Assembly: GCF_019649055.1 (NCBI RefSeq)
Contig: NW_026570223.1
Location: 2,728,001 to 2,792,000 of the forward strand
Source of the DNA: Paramacrobiotus metropolitanus
Taxonomy: Eukaryota > Tardigrada > Eutardigrada > Parachela > Macrobiotidae
Direction: 5' to 3'
Length of the DNA: 64,000 nucleotides
Positions 47,983 to 64,000 of the stretch are shown here, one piece after another. Within the stretch, counting starts at the first letter, position 1. Every line of letters begins with the position of its first letter. The position numbers were made by a program, and so were the translations under genes. The notes below the pieces were generated by a model. It searched no databases. It had not been told where the DNA came from and was given only the letters and a program-made list of their open reading frames with translations.

Positions 47983-50900
47983 TCAACCAAGATCTTTATT
48001 TATAAATCTTGCCGACGTATTTCGACGCATAAACGTATCGGGTATCTTCTGTACAGTGGAGAGCTTTTCGCTTTCCTTCGCTGTAAATCGCAATGATTTG
48101 ACAGCATCACAGCCAAACCACCAGATATTCGTGGTACGAGGATAGCTTGGGTCGACACGGAAATTGCGATCGTCGAAGCGATAATAAGAATTGTCAACAA
48201 AAAAATAAGTTTTGCCATTCTTCCATTGAAAGGCCGCTTCTATTTTCTTGGGCAGGCCGGACCACACTGACAACGGACGGGGATAGGAGCTGGCAACTGG
48301 CGGATTGCTGCCACGATCATAACGCCAATATCGTTCGCCTGAAAATAATAATTTAAAATTTACTGCATGTAATGTCGAATGTTGATGCTTTTTAAGGGCA
48401 GGAATAGGCAGCATATGTCATGTACTAGATAACAAAACAAAACTAAAATTCGCCGATACAGCAACATTAAAAGACAGTAGCCCTGACCTTTGATGAAATA
48501 GGTCTTGTCGTTTCCTCCCCATACAAACGCAGCATCGATATTATCAGGTATCCCCGCAAAGCCATCTCGAATCTGTTTGGGATATCCAGGATCGATGGCA
48601 TTGTCTTGCCATCTCCAATAGTAACTGCCCTGAGATTACCACAAATTATGCTAAGATTATTAATCGCTTCGCACTTATCTCGTTACTGTTACTCAAACTT
48701 TCTCGGTCAAGTGCATATTCTCATCATAAGCATCATATTATGTATCTACGTAATATATAAACAGTATGTGCTTGCTATCGCGAAGGTAAAGCAAAATGTT
48801 TACGTTTTTAGATTTGGACATCATTTGGTCATAACATGCAACATGAGTCTTGTGTAACAGTTACGACTACCTTGCGCTCTGTAGTAATTAGTAATTTGAA
48901 AAGGTTATTTAATACTTTAAAGAAGTAGATTTTGCCGTCCGGCCAGGAGAGCGCGGCATCCAAATGCGACGGCAATCCTCCCCATCCTTCAGAAATCCGT
49001 CGAGGATATCCAGGTATTACATCGGTGTCGGCTAATTTCCAGTAATATTCACCTAAAAGATTTATCTCATATATACTCATACTGGATAAATCATTTCACT
49101 CACTACTCAGCAGGCAATAAATAGTGCATTTTACAATATCTGCAGTAGGAGTACCTATACTCCGCGGTAAAATATTGTTGCTTTTGACCTCTCCTTATGC
49201 CAGGTAGTCGTGCACTTACCGTACCTAATGCGTTTTTGTGGCTTACCTCGATAGATTCAAAGATTTTTTCTGTTCTTTGAACTTTAAAACTGCCGTTAAC
49301 ATGAAGCATAAACTATCGTTAATCATCAGTTATATATTGTTCTCATGCTGTCAATGAATAGTATGTTCTCCTGTACGCGTCAATTTCACAAACCTGCTTT
49401 GTACACATGTGTATTGCACACTGACAACATGTATTCATAGAATGATAGTCGAAACTGTCAAATTTCTTTTTATTTTCTTTTATATTATAGGCCTTTTCCA
49501 TTCCTCATGGTCAGTATTAATGGTATTAAAAATATTGAAATCCATTGGGGACTATAAATCTATAATGCGAACTAAATCGTGCGCCAAATCCAGAAAACTG
49601 CGACATTGCAGATGGTTTGCAGTCTGCTGTGTACAGATAAAATTTGCGAAGGTGGTACAAATTAGCATTTCATCCTGTTCTCTTATCACTTATTCATGCA
49701 GCAGCTCACCTTGCTAATGATAAAATTGAATAAAATTACCTCGCAAAACCCTTTGGTAAGCAAAAATACACACTGATTTTGCGTCAAAATTTTGCTAGTT
49801 TTTCTACTCTACTGCTCGCAGTGGCCCTGCACGTTGAATACCTATATAGATATTAGAATGATATGTTCGTACTTCTGTCTTAACCGTCTACTCATACTGA
49901 TTTTCGATTACCCCTAAAAACGAACGTCTCCCCGTGAACATTCATGGTAATAGCATCCATCCTATCCATCATACAAATATCCGGCATGGCTGACGTGCCG
50001 CCGAACCCGGGATCGGGCGGCGGCGGCGGCGGCTCCCATATATCCGTCCAAATCGGATAGCCCGGATTGACTGTATTGAAGAGATCCAAATCGGGTTGTA
50101 CGGCCGGGTTCATGCCCGGATTGGGCTTAGGATTAGAGCCGCCGCCGGCCGCCTCTTCCGGCCCGCGCCGTCCGTTAGGCAATCGGGGCGGCCAGTTGCC
50201 GGCGGCCGCAGGCGGGGCGCTGACCGCCGTATCGGCGTGGACGTGCTTTTTGTAATTGTAGTTCTTTTTCGTCGGCATATCTCCGTACAAGGCCTGGATG
50301 GCGGCGATATCATCCTCGGCCAGGCGCAGTGTCGGTTTGTAGCCTCGATAGAACGGTGCCATTAGTGCACCTTGAACTTCAGAGTGCTCCAATCCAAGGG
50401 CATGACCTATCTCGTGAGCCGCCGTTTGCAGCAGATTCACACCTAATCATCACATTGCACAATTTAATTTTTGTCGAAGTATGGTGGCTTTCTCGTGCGT
50501 TCAGCTATAGTTACCGTTGTAAGAACTGAGAGTCCATCCCTCGTCATCATCGAAGTGAACGTCACCTTAATGCACACCAGCATGTAGTGCTTACTGCTTA
50601 ATATTTTTGATACTGTAATTCAATCTCTTAATGCATAATTATGGTATACCTCCAAATTGTGGAAAGAACGCATGAGCCAGGGTTTTACCGGGTCCGTCAA
50701 ATGGCTGACCATCGCCGTGATCCCCGGTGGCAAACAGCAATTCAATATGTACCGGACCATTGCGCTTATGGTTAAAGGTTAACGGAGTGAATTCACTCCA
50801 CACTTTGAAAGCACGTCCAATTTCCAAATCTATAAGACTTCTCTCGAGATCCTGCGTATAACGGGCGATGTTGTAACTTAAATCTGCAAAATAATTTCAT

Positions 50901-53906: not shown

Positions 53907-56900
53907 ATGAAGTCTCTAATATTGTTAACCTTTACCGCAGCCCTTTCATACAATGCCGTTTTATTGTCGGCCCAGACAACTGTCGAAAGCCCACCGACTG
54001 GTATAACTTACTGTTCCTTACGCCGCCTATTATTTATTTACTTTTTAACGATTTCTGATTCGGGATTTCGCAATTGCGGCGTGGTTAATTTTGTTACTGG
54101 TTTCTTGCTCTTTTATTTTGACGATGCGATTGGATAACTGTTTTCTGTGGTTATAGACTTCGGTTGCACGAAACCTTTCGATGCAGTGGATTTAGGTCCT
54201 GACAATTTGTACTATTTTTTCATTGGATCATACCTGTATACCGTAGAGTGAGTGGACACTGGACATATTGTGATGAACATTTAAGCTATTCATCACGAAT
54301 TTATACAATCAACGCTTTCGTAAATGATTTCCATGTAATTAATGCATACACCGCTTGGATTATGGAATGACTGTTGTTTTTCATAGCTCAACTACCAATG
54401 CTACAGTTGGACCACGTCTTATTTCGGATTACTTCCAAGGCGTCTCATTGCCTATTTTAGCCGCGTTTACCATCGGACCTTTGAATGCGGCCATGTACAT
54501 TATTGATGTAAGTGGCCCTTACTTTTCGGATCTGTATAACAATCCATACAAATATGTCGTTTTATATTTTAATCATGAATAAATGCCAATTTACTATCAT
54601 AAATTTGCCAGGTTAAAACGGCAAACAATATCTCGAATATTAATGCTGTACATTCTTTTGGTAATGAGTACTTTATACTACAAGGAATTAAAATCGTCAT
54701 ATCCTATGGTGCGACGATATAATAGAATAGATACAATTGTACGTAGTTCAGTAGTTGTATCAAACGCAAATCGTTTTTGTAAGAAAATGTTTATAACTTA
54801 CATGTTTTATTCATTTGTTAGCACAGCACAAATATACAGTATTAATCTATGAAGTTAATAAGAATTGCTAAATAGTTAAATTGTTCATCGCCATAGAGTG
54901 ATCCTGTTAATAATCTCAAACGATACAAATTTACCACTTCGGCGCCGCATCCAGTGGACGGTGTAGCGGTATCCGCATCTTCAAAGTTCATGAGCGGTCT
55001 TCCTAATCCGATCAAAGCGGCTCTTACGACGTACCAACCAGCGCGGGTTTATTTATTCGGAGGTTCTTCCAGTTCACCAACAATATACATCTACAATTTT
55101 AACCCAAACGCTGCAGTCTTCACTTACTCCCAGCAGTACACGCCGTCGCAGTGGGCATGGGGTGGAGCTGATATTAATAGTGCAACTATGTTCTATAATG
55201 CTTCCGACGGTACAAAAACATCGAATTATCTCTATCATTCAGGCGGTTCGGTTGCAGCGTTAAACAGCGGATTAACTGCGGTACGTTCACGGTATTTTTC
55301 TTATTAGATTCAATCCAGTGCTTTCGCAAGTAAGTCAATAACCCTCTGTGATGCAGTACATGTCCCCGAGTTCCCCGACGCCCATGAACAGTTGTCCCTC
55401 ATGGCTGCCACCACAGTTAAGCGGTTGTTGTCAAAGCCCTACTACCACGTTAACCACAACGCTTGCGACCACTACGACCCCAGCAGCAAGCACCACCACG
55501 TCTGGTAAGCCTCTAAATCTAGCTTTGACAACTCGACTACCTCGACCAAATCGTTACTCGAAAAACAAAAGGTCACCAAGCTGCGGTCGCTTATTGCGGT
55601 ATTTTGCGCAAAGTATTTTCGATTTTAACTCGTCATATCGCCTGCATGAAGTTAACTAAAGACAGCAAAACTGCAAGAGCTCTTTTAAACCGTTGACGCA
55701 AAATCTGAATGAAAATATAACGATGTATGCATAATACATAAACACTTACAGCGAGAGATCGTATTATGTCAGGGCCAGTCAGGCCGCCGCAGGACCAGAA
55801 GGTCACGCTTTGCGCGATGCATTCATTTGAGCGTACTCAGAGTAGTAAAAATACAATTTTGAAATACTTACTCCCTAGAGTAGAGTAGAGGAGTGGAGTC
55901 CCTTCTGTACATGCATGTACTGCAAATTGTAAGTACTATGTATTATGGTGGAGCTGCTCCTCCATCTTTGAGATTTCGAAAACAGCGTACAGCGGCTGTA
56001 GTCTCGATTTTTGTTTTTGAAAAGCACAGGTTTATTTACTTTTTTACTGCAAGTGTCACGAAGTTAAATCGTACGCGTACCTCAAGTTCTCAACACACTT
56101 ATCGTACTCAACGTCAACGTAGTTGTAAACCTATACTTACGCGTATCCTACCGCTTCGTACGTGATAAAATTTGGATTAATAATAAGCACATAAATTATA
56201 CCTATTAGGCTGTTACTAATTACAATGTATCTTATACCAGGTTAAAATACGTACGGTTGTTGGAAGAGTTGATGCGAAGGCCATGTGCCATAGCATGCCG
56301 TCAGCGGACAGCGGCATGCTATGGCCCATGGCTGCTGCATGGAAACAAAAAAACATTAATTTTGATGAAAAAATTTTACTGAACACTATCGAATGTTTTC
56401 ACGCAGTTGGTTCTGATTTATAAAATGGGTACGACCTTATCAATAATGAGAATTGCTATGGTAGTATAATGCAACAAGTGAACTGGAGAATTTCTGCCAT
56501 TGTTACTGATATTAATTTTCATTACAGTACTTATTATTTCACACCTAGGTCCTTGCGCAAATGGTTACGACGCCGTGGACTTAGCTCCGGATAACAAGTA
56601 TTATTTTTTCACTGGATCCACGGTTTCCACTGTTGAGTAAGTTTCGCTTCGTTATGGCTAGACCTTCAGCTGTCGCTCTGGAGCTGCGAATTTGCAAACT
56701 TGTACTTTGCTTTCAATGATTAAAGCCAACAAGAAATTACTGTCCTTTTGCAGGAAGCTGACGCCTGACACACCTACAACTGCAGTACCAATCAGTACTT
56801 TGTTCCAAAACATTACCGGTCGAGTAATTGCGGTATTTTCAACTGGGCCATCTCCTGCTTTGGCCAGAATGTACATCATTGATGTAAGCATAAATGTGTA

Positions 56901-59900
56901 TGTGCTACTACAGGCACAGTCCACATATAGAGTTTACGGTTGTTGATGTTGTATTAACTTATTTAGTCCCATGCGACCACACCGGTCAAAATCTTCCGAA
57001 TGACGGATCAAGTGCCCCGTGGTCCCTTAACCATAACAGATTTCAGCCTTTTCCCTTCAGCAGCCGCGAATATCCCGATGCCTCTCCTGTCGGCGTTTTC
57101 CTCAATTAATCCGGCTCGCGTCAACTTTATCGGTGGTTTACCGGGCAATAGGAAAGTAGGGTCGTACACATACTACCTGGCCGGGGGAACGTTCACTCCG
57201 ATGGGTACAACGACTGTCCTGCATTCGGCGTGGAATGATGATATCACGGCAGCTACAATGCATTACAACACCAACGGCGGAGCCATTACATACTATGGAT
57301 TTTCACAGTATCAGACTGCACGATTGGATGCGGCTTCAACTGTAAGTCAGCCAGACAACCAACGAAAGGGGCAGATTAGGTCTTCATCTCTTATGGGCCA
57401 TAGGTTCAAATAGGACCTACGGATAGTGGAACTTGTCCGACGTGGCAACCCAGCATGTTCAGCAGTTGTTGTAGCAGTATGACATCCGTGGCCACGACCA
57501 CACCGGTACCAGCTACCACAACAATTCCACCACCACAGCGTTAGTGCGGATAATAGAATGCGCACCAAGCTTTCTGGCAAACGGTTTCATGCGAGTTGGT
57601 TTTGTAGCATTCTCCTGTACGACCACTCCAGATGCTATTGATTTGGCACCCGATAGCCAGTACTACTTTTTCGTCGGTTATTACTTCTACACAGTGCAGT
57701 AAGTTGGATATTGTTGAAGTTTAATTAGCACTGTATATCGTGATGGATTAGAAGTTCTGAAAGAAAGCAACAATATGATTTTGAAAAAATTTATGTTTAT
57801 GAAGACATTGTTTATAATTTATATTTATAATGATAATTTATAACTGACTGTGACTGACTGTGCGTTCTAGTAAAACAACGAAAGTTATGGCTGGCCCAAC
57901 GTTGATCACTTCCAAGTTCGGTCAGATTGTCCCGCCAGTTATTGCGGCCTTCAGTATTGGGCCGATGAATGCCAAAATGTACCTGATTGATGTAAGAGTT
58001 TCATGCCAATAATTTCTATGGAAAATCTTTTAGCGTTGCAATTAATTTTTAGAGCTCTGCCACAGCAAACGTGAAGCAATACGAAAAGATCGATGTTACC
58101 TCGAGCTCTCCCTTACAACCTACTGCAAGCAAGATGCTTGAACAATTTTTCCCTAGTGGAAGCACAATTCCCAAACCACTGACAGCCGCTATGAGTACCT
58201 TTATTCCAGCAAGAGTCTACTTTTTCGGCGGTCTTCCGCGTACAGCAGCCATGTATTCATTTAATACAGCGACGGCAGCCTTCGCGTCATTATCTACCTC
58301 CTCGAATTTAGCTCAAAAATGGAATGTCGATGTTCAAGCAGCTACCATGCATTTTTACCCGAATAACGGGTCATATGGTTTCTTCGCATTTGGAAAAACT
58401 GACGCAGTCCAACTCAATTCCAATATAGAGGTAAGGAAATACATGATTTACAAGATAATCGTTTCCAATATGCTAACGCTAACTGACTACAACGTGACCT
58501 CAACTAGTATTGAATCTGAGGTTTGATTTCCTTGTAAAATTACTCTTCACAACAAAATATAATAAAAATGTTTAAAAGGTTTTCCAAGGCCCCGCTAGCA
58601 ACGCTAACTGTCCCACATGGATGCCCGCTCTTCTCATACCAGCATGCTGCGGATCTGCGACCACAATCGCATCCAGCACTCTCAACACCATACCCGCTAC
58701 GCCGACAACGACACCAACTACCACAATCACCACCACGCCGACAACGACATCAACTACCACAACGTCGACGACTACCACTACGTCGGCTACTACATCCACT
58801 ACGACAGACACAACAACGCCGACTACCACGTCAACTACAACGGACACCACCACACCGACAACGACATCAACTACCACAGATACCAGCACGTCGACGGCTA
58901 CAACCACGCCGACGACATCAACTACAACGGACACCACCCCGTCGACAACTACATCCACTACCACTGACACAACCACGCCGACTTCTACGTCAACTACTAC
59001 GGATACCACAACGTCGACGGCTACCACCACGCCGACAACTACGTCAACTACAACGGACACCACCACGCCGACAACGACATCAACCACAACGGACACCACC
59101 ACGCCGACAACGACATCACCCACAACGGACACCACCACGCCGACAACGACATCAACCACAACGGACACCACCACGCCGACAACTACATCCACTACGACTG
59201 ACACAACCACGCCGACTACTACGTCAACTACAACGGACACCACCACACCGACAAGTACATCCACTACGACTGACACAACCACGCCGACTACTACGTCAAT
59301 TTCTACGGATACCACAACGTCGACGGCTACCACCACGGCGACTGCTACGTCAACCACTACCGATACCACAACTACAACGGACACCACCACACCGACAACG
59401 ACATCAACTTCTACGGATACCACAACGTCTACAGGTACCACCACGCCGACGACATCAACTACAACGGACACCACCACGTCGACAACTACATCCACTACGA
59501 CTGACACAACCACGCCGACTTCTACGTCAACTACTACGGATACCACAACGTCGACGGCTACCACCACGCCGACAACTACGTCAACTACAACGGACACCAC
59601 CACGCCGACAACGACATCAACTACTACGGATACCACAACGTCGACGGGTACCACCACGCCGACCACTACATCCTCTACGACAGACACAACAACTCCGACT
59701 ACTACGTCAACTACAACGGACACCACCACGCCGACGACGACATCAGCCACAACGGACACCACCACGCCGACAACGACCTCAACCACAACAGACACGTCCA
59801 CGCCGACAACGACATCAACCACAACGGACACCACCACGCCGACAACTACATCCACTACGACTGACACAACCACGCCGACAACGACATCAACCACAACGGA

Positions 59901-62900
59901 CACCACCACGCCGACAACGACATCAACCACAACGGACACCACCACGCCGACAACTACATCCACTACGACTGACACAACCACGCCGACTACTACGTCAATT
60001 TCTACGGATACCACAACGTCGACGGCTACCACCACGGCGACTGCTACGTCAACCACTACCGATACCACAACTACAACGGACACCACCACACCGACAACGA
60101 CATCAACTTCTACGGATACCACAACGTCTACAGGTACCACCACGCCGACGACATCAACTACAACGGACACCACCACGTCGACAACTACATCCACTACGAC
60201 TGACACAACCACGCCGACTTCTACGTCAACTACTACGGATACCACAACGTCGACGGCTACCACCACGCCGACAACTACGTCAACTACAACGGACACCACC
60301 ACGCCGACAACGACATCAACTACTACGGATACCACAACGTCGACGGGTACCACCACGCCGACCACTACATCCTCTACGACAGACACAGCCACGCCGACTA
60401 CGACAACTACAACGGTTACGACATCGACGACCACGGACACGACCACCAGTACTGACACAACGTCCACGTCCACGGACACGACCACCAGTACTGACAGGTA
60501 ACTTAGCGGCGACGGGACTTGTAACATTGAGATTGTGTTTCTGAGTGCGGTCGGCCGAATGGAATGTTTTGGAGAATAGCAAAGCCCCCGGTTTTAGCAC
60601 GCAGGAAAGAGTAGGCAGTCGAGAACGGGTTGGGAGTCTGACATAACGCGCTTAGCTCCAAGAGGGTAGTGGATTAGTCGGAGCAGTGAGAAAAATCGTT
60701 GAGCACATGCTGGCCTAGCGCCAGCCGGTCTTAGGCTAGCAGCCAAAAGCATCATGATCACAGGGAGTGCTGACCGGCATGTTGTATCTTTGCTGCAGCA
60801 CTACCGACACAACAACCACTCCCACCACGACAGACACGACAACAACCGCGACCAGTACTGATACGACAACGGACACTACCACAACTGACACGACGACAAG
60901 CACCGCCAGTACGTCGACGGACACTAGCACCGATACCAGCACGTCTACAGTGTCCAGTACGGATACTACCACTGACACGACATCGACGTCCACGGACACG
61001 ACCACCAGTACTGACACAACGTCCACGTCCACGGACACGACCACCAGTACTGACAGGTAACTTAGCGGCGACGGGACTTGTAACATTGAGATTGTGTTTC
61101 TGAGTGCGGTCGGCCGAATGGAATGTTTTGGAGAATAGCAAAGCCCCCGGTTTTTGCACGCAGGAAAGAGTAGGCAGTCGAGAACGGGTTGGGAGTCTGA
61201 CATAACGCGCTTAGCTCCAAGGGGGTAGTGGATTAGTCGGAGCAGTGAGAAAAATCGTTGAGCACATGCTGGCCTAGCGCCAGCCGGTCTTAGGCTAGCA
61301 GCCAAAAGCATCATGATCACAGGGAGTGCTGACCGGCATGTTCTATCTTTGCTGCAGCACTACCGACACAACAACCACTCCCACCACGACAGACACGACA
61401 ACAACCGCGACCAGTACTGATACGACAACGGACACTACCACAACTGACACGACGACAAGCACCGCCAGTACGTCGACGGACACTAGCACCGATACCAGCA
61501 CGTCTACAGTGTCCAGTACGGATACTACCACTGACACGACATCGACGTCCACGGACACGACCACCAGTACTGACACAACGTCCACGTCCACGGACACGAC
61601 CACCAGTACTGACAGGTAACTTAGCGGCGACGGGACTTGTAACATTGAGATTGTGTTTCTGAGTGCGGTCGGCCGAATGGAATGTTTTGGAGAATAGCAA
61701 AGCCCCCGGTTTTTGCACGCAGGAAAGAGTAGGCAGTCGAGAACGGGTTGGGAGTCTGACATAACGCGCTTAGCTCCAAGGGGTAGTGGATTAGTCGGAG
61801 CAGTGAGAAAAATCGTTGAGCACATGCTGGCCTAGCGCCAGCCGGTCTTAGGCTAGCAGCCAAAAGCATCATGATCACAGGGAGTGCTGACCGGCATGTT
61901 GTATCTTTGCTGCAGCACTACCGACACAACAACCACTCCCACCACGACAGACACGACAACAACCGCGACCAGTACTGATACGACAACGGACACTACCACA
62001 ACTGACACGACGACAAGCACCGCCAGTACGTCGACGGACACTAGCACCGATACCAGCACGTCTACAGTGTCCAGTACGGATACTACCACTGACACGACAT
62101 CGACGTCCACGGACACGACCACCAGTACTGACACAACGTCCACGTCCACGGACACGACCACCAGTGCTGACAGGTAACTTAGCGGCGACGGGACTTGTAA
62201 CATTGAGATTGTGTTTCTGAGTGCGGTCGGCCGAATGGAATGTTTTGGAGAATAGCAAAGCCCCCGGTTTTTGCACGCAGGAAAGAGTAGGCAGTCGAGA
62301 ACGGGTTGGGAGTCTGACATAACGCGCTTAGCTCCAAGGGGGTAGTGGATTAGTCGGAGCAGTGAGAAAAATCGTTGAGCACATGCTGGCCTAGCGCCAG
62401 CCGGTCTTAGGCTAGCAGCCAAAAGCATCATGATCACAGGGAGTGCTGACCGGCATGTTCTATCTTTGCTGCAGCACTACCGACACAACAACCACTCCCA
62501 CCACGACAGACACGACAACAACCGCGACCAGTACTGATACGACAACGGACACTACCACAACTGACACGACGACAAGCACCGCCAGTACGTCGACGGACAC
62601 TAGCACCGATACCAGCACGTCTACAGTGTCCAGTACGGATACTACCACTGACACGACATCGACGTCCACGGACACGACCACCAGTACTGACACAACGTCC
62701 ACGTCCACGGACACGACCACCAGTACTGACAGGTAACTTAGCGGCGACGGGACTTGTAACATTGAGATTGTGTTTCTGAGTGCGGTCGGCCGAATGGAAT
62801 GTTTTGGAGAATAGCAAAGCCCCCGGTTTTTGCACGCAGGAAAGAGTAGGCAGTCGAGAACGGGTTGGGAGTCTGACATAACGCGCTTAGCTCCAAGGGG

Positions 62901-63848
62901 TAGTGGATTAGTCGGAGCAGTGAGAAAAATCGTTGAGCACATGCTGGCCTAGCGCCAGCCGGTCTTAGGCTAGCAGCCAAAAGCATCATGATCACAGGGA
63001 GTGCTGACCGGCATGTTGTATCTTTGCTGCAGCACTACCGACACAACAACCACTCCCACCACGACAGACACGACAACAACCGCGACCAGTACTGATACGA
63101 CAACGGACACTACCACAACTGACACGACGACAAGCACCGCCAGTACGTCGACGGACACTAGCACCGATACCAGCACGTCTACAGTGTCCAGTACGGATAC
63201 TACCACTGACACGACATCGACGTCCACGGACACGACCACCAGTACTGACACAACGTCCACGTCCACGGACACGACCACCAGTGCTGACAGGTAACTTAGC
63301 GGCGACGGGACTTGTAACATTGAGATTGTGTTTCTGAGTGCGGTCGGCCGAATGGAATGTTTTGGAGAATAGCAAAGCCCCCGGTTTTTGCACGCAGGAA
63401 AGAGTAGGCAGTCGAGAACGGGTTGGGAGTCTGACATAACGCGCTTAGCTCCAAGGGGGTAGTGGATTAGTCGGAGCAGTGAGAAAAATCGTTGAGCACA
63501 TGCTGGCCTAGCGCCAGCCGGTCTTAGGCTAGCAGCCAAAAGCATCATGATCACAGGAGTGCTGACCGGCATGTTCTATCTTTGCTGCAGCACTACCGAC
63601 ACAACAACCACTCCCACCACGACAGACACGACAACAACCGCGACCAGTACTGATACGACAACGGACACTACCACAACTGACACGACGACAAGCACCGCCA
63701 GTACGTCGACGGACACTAGCACCGATACCAGCACGTCTACAGTGTCCAGTACGGATACTACCACTGACACGACATCGACGTCCACGGACACGACCACCAG
63801 TACTGACACAACGTCCACGTCCACGGACACGACCACCAGTACTGACAG
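53907..63848 (+). CDS. Secreted protein with three hemopexin-like modules and a long Thr/Ser/Asp mucin-like stalk, 3' end outside window
   Basis: Exons: 53907-54000, 54157-54247, 54387-54507, 54897-55280, 55357-55504, 56549-56636, 56754-56883, 56967-57341, 57404-57539, 57608-57698, 57871-57991, 58053-58430, 58579-60497, then six 258-nt exons (60799-61056, 61358-61615, 61916-62173, 62475-62732, 63033-63290, 63591-63848). All phases agree; 1,874 codons lie in the window. Signal peptide (MKSLILLTFTAALSYNAVLL), then three modules (~32-279, 280-522, 523-740). Each starts with Cys plus DA[VI]DL.PD..YYFF.G, has three further blade-like repeats (AAF.IGP.NA.MYIID; A..PARV.F.GG; AATM..) and ends CP[ST]W...CC. 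I infer four-bladed hemopexin-like propellers closed by a Cys pair. Thr-rich linkers separate modules; the tail is almost only T, S, D, P. Probably an extracellular, O-glycosylated protein; function unknown. Confidence 0.8.
55505..56548 (+). other. Large intron between hemopexin-like modules 1 and 2
   Basis: This 1,044-bp phase-1 intron separates the Thr-rich linker of module 1 from the first exon of module 2. A GTAAGC donor follows TCTG at 55504 and a CACACCTAG acceptor precedes GTCCTTGC. It contains a strong hairpin at 56281-56331. No gene was recognised inside. Confidence 0.8.
56281..56331. repeat. 20-bp inverted repeat hairpin
   Basis: Left arm 56281-56300 and right arm 56312-56331 pair with one mismatch (core CCATAGCATGCCG / CGGCATGCTATGG) around an 11-nt loop. 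It lies in the 1-kb intron of the tandem hemopexin-like gene. The stem is shorter than a typical animal pre-miRNA, so a foldback repeat or structural element is more likely. Confidence 0.85.
58690..60497 (+). repeat. Minisatellite coding for Thr/Ser/Asp/Pro repeats (exon 13)
   Basis: Imperfect tandem units of about 36 bp (for example ACGTCAACTACAACGGACAC, then CACCACGCCGACA) encode the 12-residue pattern STTTDTTTPTTT. Copies vary by substitution and in-frame loss. A longer block is duplicated in frame: sequence near 59291 recurs at +699 bp near 59990, and similarity runs roughly from 59.2-59.69 to 59.9-60.39 kb. Because units are multiples of three and avoid stop triplets on both strands, other frames are also open here; only the frame that joins to upstream and downstream exons encodes the T/S/D repeat. 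Confidence 0.92.
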
Positions 63849-64000
63849 GTAACTTAGCGGCGACGGGACTTGTAACATTGAGATTGTGTTTCTGAGTGCG
63901 GTCGGCCGAATGGAATGTTTTGGAGAATAGCAAAGCCCCCGGTTTTTGCACGCAGGAAAGAGTAGGCAGTCGAGAACGGGTTGGGAGTCTGACATAACGC
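60423..64000 (+). repeat. Tandem array of ~558-bp exon+intron cassettes
   Basis: At least six copies of a 558-559-bp unit run to the window end. Each unit contains one exon of exactly 258 nt, preceded by ATCTTTGCTGCAG and followed by the donor CAG|GTAACTTAGC, plus a 300-301-nt intron that is nearly identical in all copies. Exons start at 60799, 61358, 61916, 62475, 63033 and 63591. The exon begins with the third base and ends with the second base of a codon (phase 2-2), so joining copies restores Ser (AG+C) and keeps frame. The array begins inside the end of exon 13, whose last ~75 bp and following intron are the same sequence. Copies alternate between two subtypes (GTTGTATC versus GTTCTATC before the acceptor), giving a ~1,117-bp higher-order unit. 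Confidence 0.93.

Follow-up and report, generated by a model that had tools for sequence, protein, structure and literature searches.

A tandem array of about 106 near-identical exon-intron units in a putative secreted mucin-like gene of a tardigrade, and its shared piece with a transposon family

The nearest described counterparts of the gene analysed here are the Muc13 genes of chicken and zebrafish, in which each Ser/Thr-rich repeat of the mucin domain is one near-identical exon; for chicken Muc13, with one near-identical PTS repeat per exon, length control by recombination and splicing was proposed (PMC1552070). Human MUC16 (CA125) is a giant mucin in which intron-bearing units code for the tandem repeats, with five exons per repeat (PMC3431878), and forms without whole repeats have been reported (PMC10829539). 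The kringle IV type 2 (KIV-2) unit of human LPA consists of two exons and is present in 1 to more than 40 copies, the copy number setting protein length (PMC6314250), and spider flagelliform and Argiope MaSp2 silk genes encode repetitive proteins in a single gene whose exons alternate with near-identical introns (PMC3522626). The tardigrade gene shares with Muc13 the layout of one near-identical exon per repeat, here with 106 predicted exons of phase 2-2 in an open frame, with LPA the coding tandem unit containing introns, and with the silk genes the alternation of repeat exons with similar introns. However, Muc13 belongs to the transmembrane mucins of vertebrates and has SEA and EGF domains, whereas neither domain was found in the exons of the tardigrade gene that were scanned, no membrane anchor was seen in it, and “stalk” is an unproven name for its repeat region. 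MUC16 needs five exons, with a folded SEA domain, for each 156-residue repeat and has 19 repeats in the revised model, whereas the tardigrade gene spends one exon on each 86-residue Thr/Ser/Asp repeat. The LPA unit measures 5.6 kb, encodes folded kringles and is of proven polymorphism, while the tardigrade array is known from one assembly; the silk proteins differ in composition, and the tardigrade introns, unlike those of silk genes, are less alike than the exons. The layout is already known, and what is new is the phylum, the scale and the probable capture of a piece by a transposon. The preliminary description of this DNA, which set the intron-bearing coding cassette apart from the usual growth of mucin domains, was right about a phase-symmetric tandem unit in a Thr/Ser/Asp-rich, probably secreted product, but the arrangement is not unprecedented, as chicken Muc13 illustrates.

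The window, that is, the whole stretch of 64,000 nucleotides analysed (C3:2728001-2792000, forward strand, GC 42.2%), belongs to a Paramacrobiotus metropolitanus genome of 169.8 Mb in 533 contigs. “Extended” coordinates continue the window numbering along contig C3 beyond the window end. The features are as follows.

53907..54000, plus strand: exon 1, start codon and likely signal peptide (MKSLILLTFTAALSYNAVLLSAQ...); manual model, signal peptide by eye
54157..58430, plus strand: exons 2-12, three related N-terminal modules, beta-rich; manual model, single copy in the genome
58579..60497, plus strand: exon 13, 1,919 nt, ending in the first array-type donor, CAG/GTAACT
60451..60786, plus strand: stretch homologous to a dispersed transposon family (array exon end and most of the intron)
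60498..60798, plus strand: first array intron (GTAACTTAGC...TATCTTTGCTGCAG)
60799..61056, plus strand: array exon 1 of 106, 258 nt, 86 residues, phase 2-2
61358..61615, plus strand: array exon 2
61916..62173, plus strand: array exon 3
62475..62732, plus strand: array exon 4
63033..63290, plus strand: array exon 5
63591..63848, plus strand: array exon 6, the last in the window
Beyond the window, reaching C3:2847230, plus strand: remaining 100 array exons
C3:2849290-2851198 (extended 121290-123198), plus strand: 3' Thr-rich exon, 1.9 kb, beyond a long intron after the array
Downstream of the 3' Thr-rich exon to about 125.3 kb extended, plus strand: C-terminal exons, partial model

The six 258-nt exons with a common acceptor and donor in a tandem of ~558 bp, noted in the preliminary description, were indeed found, each preceded by ...TATCTTTGCTGCAG and followed by GTAACTTAGC, and they merely open a far longer array. 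When the contig was read onward past the window, 106 exons and 106 introns were counted in 58.7 kb without N, the exons spanning extended 60799-119230, and the first array-type donor, at 60498, closes the 1,919-nt Thr-rich exon. Most exons are 258 nt long (95 of 106), the others being 213 nt (five), 219 nt (two) and 252, 234, 210 and 260 nt (one each), and the short ones cluster in the middle of the array; the 106 introns range from 284 to 308 nt, with all three length classes modulo 3 represented. The acceptor junction motif GGCATGTTNTATCTTTGCTGCAGCACTACC has 106 matches in the 170-Mb genome, all those listed lying at this locus on the plus strand of C3, and none in a reversed control, while an internal exon 36-mer has 101 genome matches that, among those listed, all fall inside the array. 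A chance repeat, a simple satellite and an unspliced open frame were considered as readings of the array and rejected. An Rfam scan of the window gave no match, and neither did a pattern for the nematode SL1 leader, which speaks against a typical SL1 nematode as the source.

The 5' part of the gene, with 13 exons and 12 upstream introns of consistent phase, was built by hand from the ATG at 53907. N-terminal modules 1 and 2 each end in a CPxWxP...CC segment with a short S/T linker, and exon 13 contains the CPTWMP...CC segment belonging to module 3 and, after it, Thr/Ser/Asp/Pro repeats of ~600 residues. By eye, exon 13 also carries an internal duplication (window 59160-59670 and 59860-60370, about 700 bp apart), and the repeat region has therefore grown inside an exon as well. 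In the intron after the array lies an insert of ~950 bp (C3:2847876-2848827, extended about 119876-120827) with many genome copies and inverted ends, ACCGGGTGGCCCA...TGGGCCACCCGGT. An N-terminal and a C-terminal module, each used as a query for paralogues, retrieved only this gene, and five N- and C-terminal exon translations scanned against Pfam gave no significant match, VWD, SEA and EGF included, and only sub-threshold ones, Kelch among them. An AlphaFold model of one module exon had a mean pLDDT of 56 (low confidence) and no significant PDB match; a propeller-like fold for the N-terminal modules would be a guess.

All array introns fall after the second codon base, such that an exon of 258 nt consists of 1 + 85x3 + 2 nt and yields 86 residues, and copies are interchangeable, as the earlier claim of phase symmetry had it. 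Beginning at the start codon and including the exon whose end lies at extended 123198, the spliced model runs for 10,898 codons without a stop, a frame that leaves out one array exon with 2 additional nt. None of the 105 array units read in frame has an internal stop, and retention of any of the 106 array introns would introduce an in-frame one. The array donor and acceptor are among the best GT/AG sites of the unit when scored with the other introns of this gene. The exception to the open frame is the 260-nt exon (C3:2821911-2822170, extended 93911-94170), whose 2-nt insertion, if real and spliced in, would shift the frame; it may be either a sequencing error or an exon that is skipped.

The introns were at first thought to be as similar to each other as the exons are, which does not hold: averaged over pairs, the difference amounts to 0.38% among exons and 1.50% among introns, which are thus about four times more variable. 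Third codon positions account for 27 of 52 exon substitutions, and the synonymous changes also number 27 of 52 (52%, with 28% expected at random), although these counts do not represent independent events, given that one change can spread to several units. Five of the six exon length classes other than 258 nt differ by multiples of 3, whereas none of 22 distinct intron indels is divisible by 3 (Fisher p about 6e-5, by hand), a comparison that is not fully fair in that the intron indels occur mostly in homopolymers, which the exons lack. Because synonymous and third-position changes are in excess, the exons are less variable, and exon indels, in contrast to intron indels, nearly all keep the frame, the substitution and indel pattern is read here as coding constraint, with the reservation about homopolymers. 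The same data bear on the possibility that the array is real DNA, most of whose units are absent from the mature mRNA, an intronic or pseudo-exonic satellite that the working form of the transcript skips. In its favour, phase symmetry would make such skipping neutral for the frame, and the unit with the +2 frameshift shows no further decay around it; however, the fourfold lower variability of the exons, their nearly always frame-keeping length changes and the lack of internal stops in the units read in frame make this reading very improbable.

The precise number of units is uncertain. For the published P. metropolitanus assembly, Canu was run on nanopore reads and short reads served for polishing (PMC8277472), the nanopore read N50 being about 17 kb (PMC11191345). 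If the present sequence is that assembly, 106 should be taken as an estimate, because most reads are shorter than the 58.7-kb array and short-read polishing, which can blur repeat copies, was applied. The assembler might have expanded a shorter array or collapsed a longer one, and there is a precedent in MUC16, for which long reads revised the repeats from 63 to 19 (PMC10829539). Nevertheless, 86 of the 106 unit sequences are distinct, variants depend on position, the short exons cluster in mid-array, and an assembler could not easily turn one copy into many in tandem; we therefore regard a copy number that is largely an assembly product as rather unlikely, though worth keeping in mind. That one unit was multiplied into an array by misassembly appears unlikely in particular, because the 86 different unit sequences stand in a structured order. 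The mean number of aligned positions at which neighbouring units differ is 12.5; shuffling the order of units gives 15.4 (s.d. 0.46), and not one of 5,000 shuffles was as low as the observed value. The G variant at the junction GGCATGTT[G/C]TATC, too, is unevenly spread, with its concentration in the 5' part of the array. Such clustered variants are what unequal crossing-over and conversion would be expected to leave.

The region rich in Thr, Ser and Asp extends over ~9,000 residues, with 62% T, 18% S, 14.5% D and 1.5% P. A long Ser/Thr-rich tandem repeat domain, by which mucins are recognised in the broad sense, is present, and the proline content of 1.5% is low for a PTS domain; the N-terminus, MKSLILLTFTAALSYNAVLLSAQ, resembles a signal peptide by eye. 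Taken together, it is highly probable, as judged from the sequence, that this gene encodes a giant secreted mucin-like protein assembled from 106 spliced, phase-neutral exon-intron units. A single-copy eutardigrade gene would produce a secreted protein of about 11,000 residues, most of whose Thr/Ser/Asp-rich region would come from one 258-nt exon repeated 106 times, every copy accompanied by an intron of ~300 nt and all of them spliced into one mRNA. The repeat region, from its composition alone, may be densely O-glycosylated and form an extended hydrophilic spacer. Unequal crossing-over and conversion would alter the copy number, and, the unit being phase-neutral, its gain, loss or skipping would change the length of the protein while the frame is kept. 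The locus would thereby extend the one-exon-per-repeat mucin layout of chicken and zebrafish Muc13 to a tardigrade and to some 106 units. As a single pre-mRNA would contain ~106 near-identical donors and acceptors, the locus offers a natural test of spliceosome fidelity on identical exons, and also of whether the length of the protein depends on the number of copies in the DNA or on skipping. Tardigrades are known for desiccation tolerance, and about 11,000 hydrophilic, probably glycosylated residues may matter for the cuticle, the egg coat or mucus.

A part of the array unit also occurs in a dispersed element of about 5 kb, which looks non-autonomous, starts with ACTAGTATAGAAGG and, towards the 3' end, has tandem repeats of ~120 bp. 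Seven copies of this element (on C149, C40, C14, C171 and C7, and two on C22) bear a piece made up of ~48 nt from the 3' end of the array exon, the donor and intron sequence of about 281 nt up to GGCATGTTTT, and an eighth, on C78, has only the start of the piece. The transposon most likely took the piece from the mucin-like gene, because more diverged copies on C89, C142 and C127 are without it and show, with small differences, a clean junction, GAGGTCAGCC/GAAGATT. The exon type that the piece resembles is the one with a single 39-mer, which survives in the array as the 219-nt exons. The array introns, at 1.5% from each other and 3.9-7.9% from the transposon piece, suggest that the array was homogenised after the capture.

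The reverse direction, in which the intron and the exon end entered the gene out of the transposon, deserves consideration, given that seven transposon copies have the same piece and that FastTree groups the array with C149 in the tree of the piece (support 0.94), yet places C149 inside the family and C7 outside it in the tree of the transposon flanks. In addition, the array introns, the last array intron (extended 119515) and the transposon piece, three separate contexts, share an end at GGCATGTT before they diverge. However, C149 sides with the array and not with the other copies at only 6 of 19 differing positions, two of which are shared with the outer C7, and its closeness to the array is read as a short conversion tract; the older copies on C89, C142 and C127, moreover, have the clean junction and no piece, and the piece opens with mucin-type coding sequence. 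An origin in the transposon is thus considered improbable, and capture from the gene is preferred. A still bolder and quite doubtful proposal would be that the exon end and intron of the unit, as one piece whose 3' end (GGCATGTT) is genuine, have passed between the gene and the transposon family, the amplified unit or later exchanges being partly transposon-born and the array becoming exceptionally long thereafter. After GGCATGTT, the last array intron continues into a short repeat that is present also at C88. Stretches of 42-47 bp of the array intron, in the array version and 94-98% identical, occur at C24:1258162-1258208 and C24:1297350-1297391, two loci that are related to each other and in which the DNA around the stretch is otherwise unrelated; the C7 transposon copy contains a partial duplication of this stretch.

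On the minus strand at about 47990-50446 of the window, a neighbouring gene resembles a matrix metalloproteinase with a hemopexin domain. The N-terminal modules of the mucin-like gene recall hemopexin blades by eye, a likeness that no search supports. Elsewhere on the same contig, at C3:446414-467142, a tandem cluster of SAHS-like genes was found, with up to 53% identity to a query designed to resemble an SAHS protein, and its presence marks the genome as that of a eutardigrade; the SAHS (tardigrade heat-soluble) proteins are, to our knowledge, specific to tardigrades.
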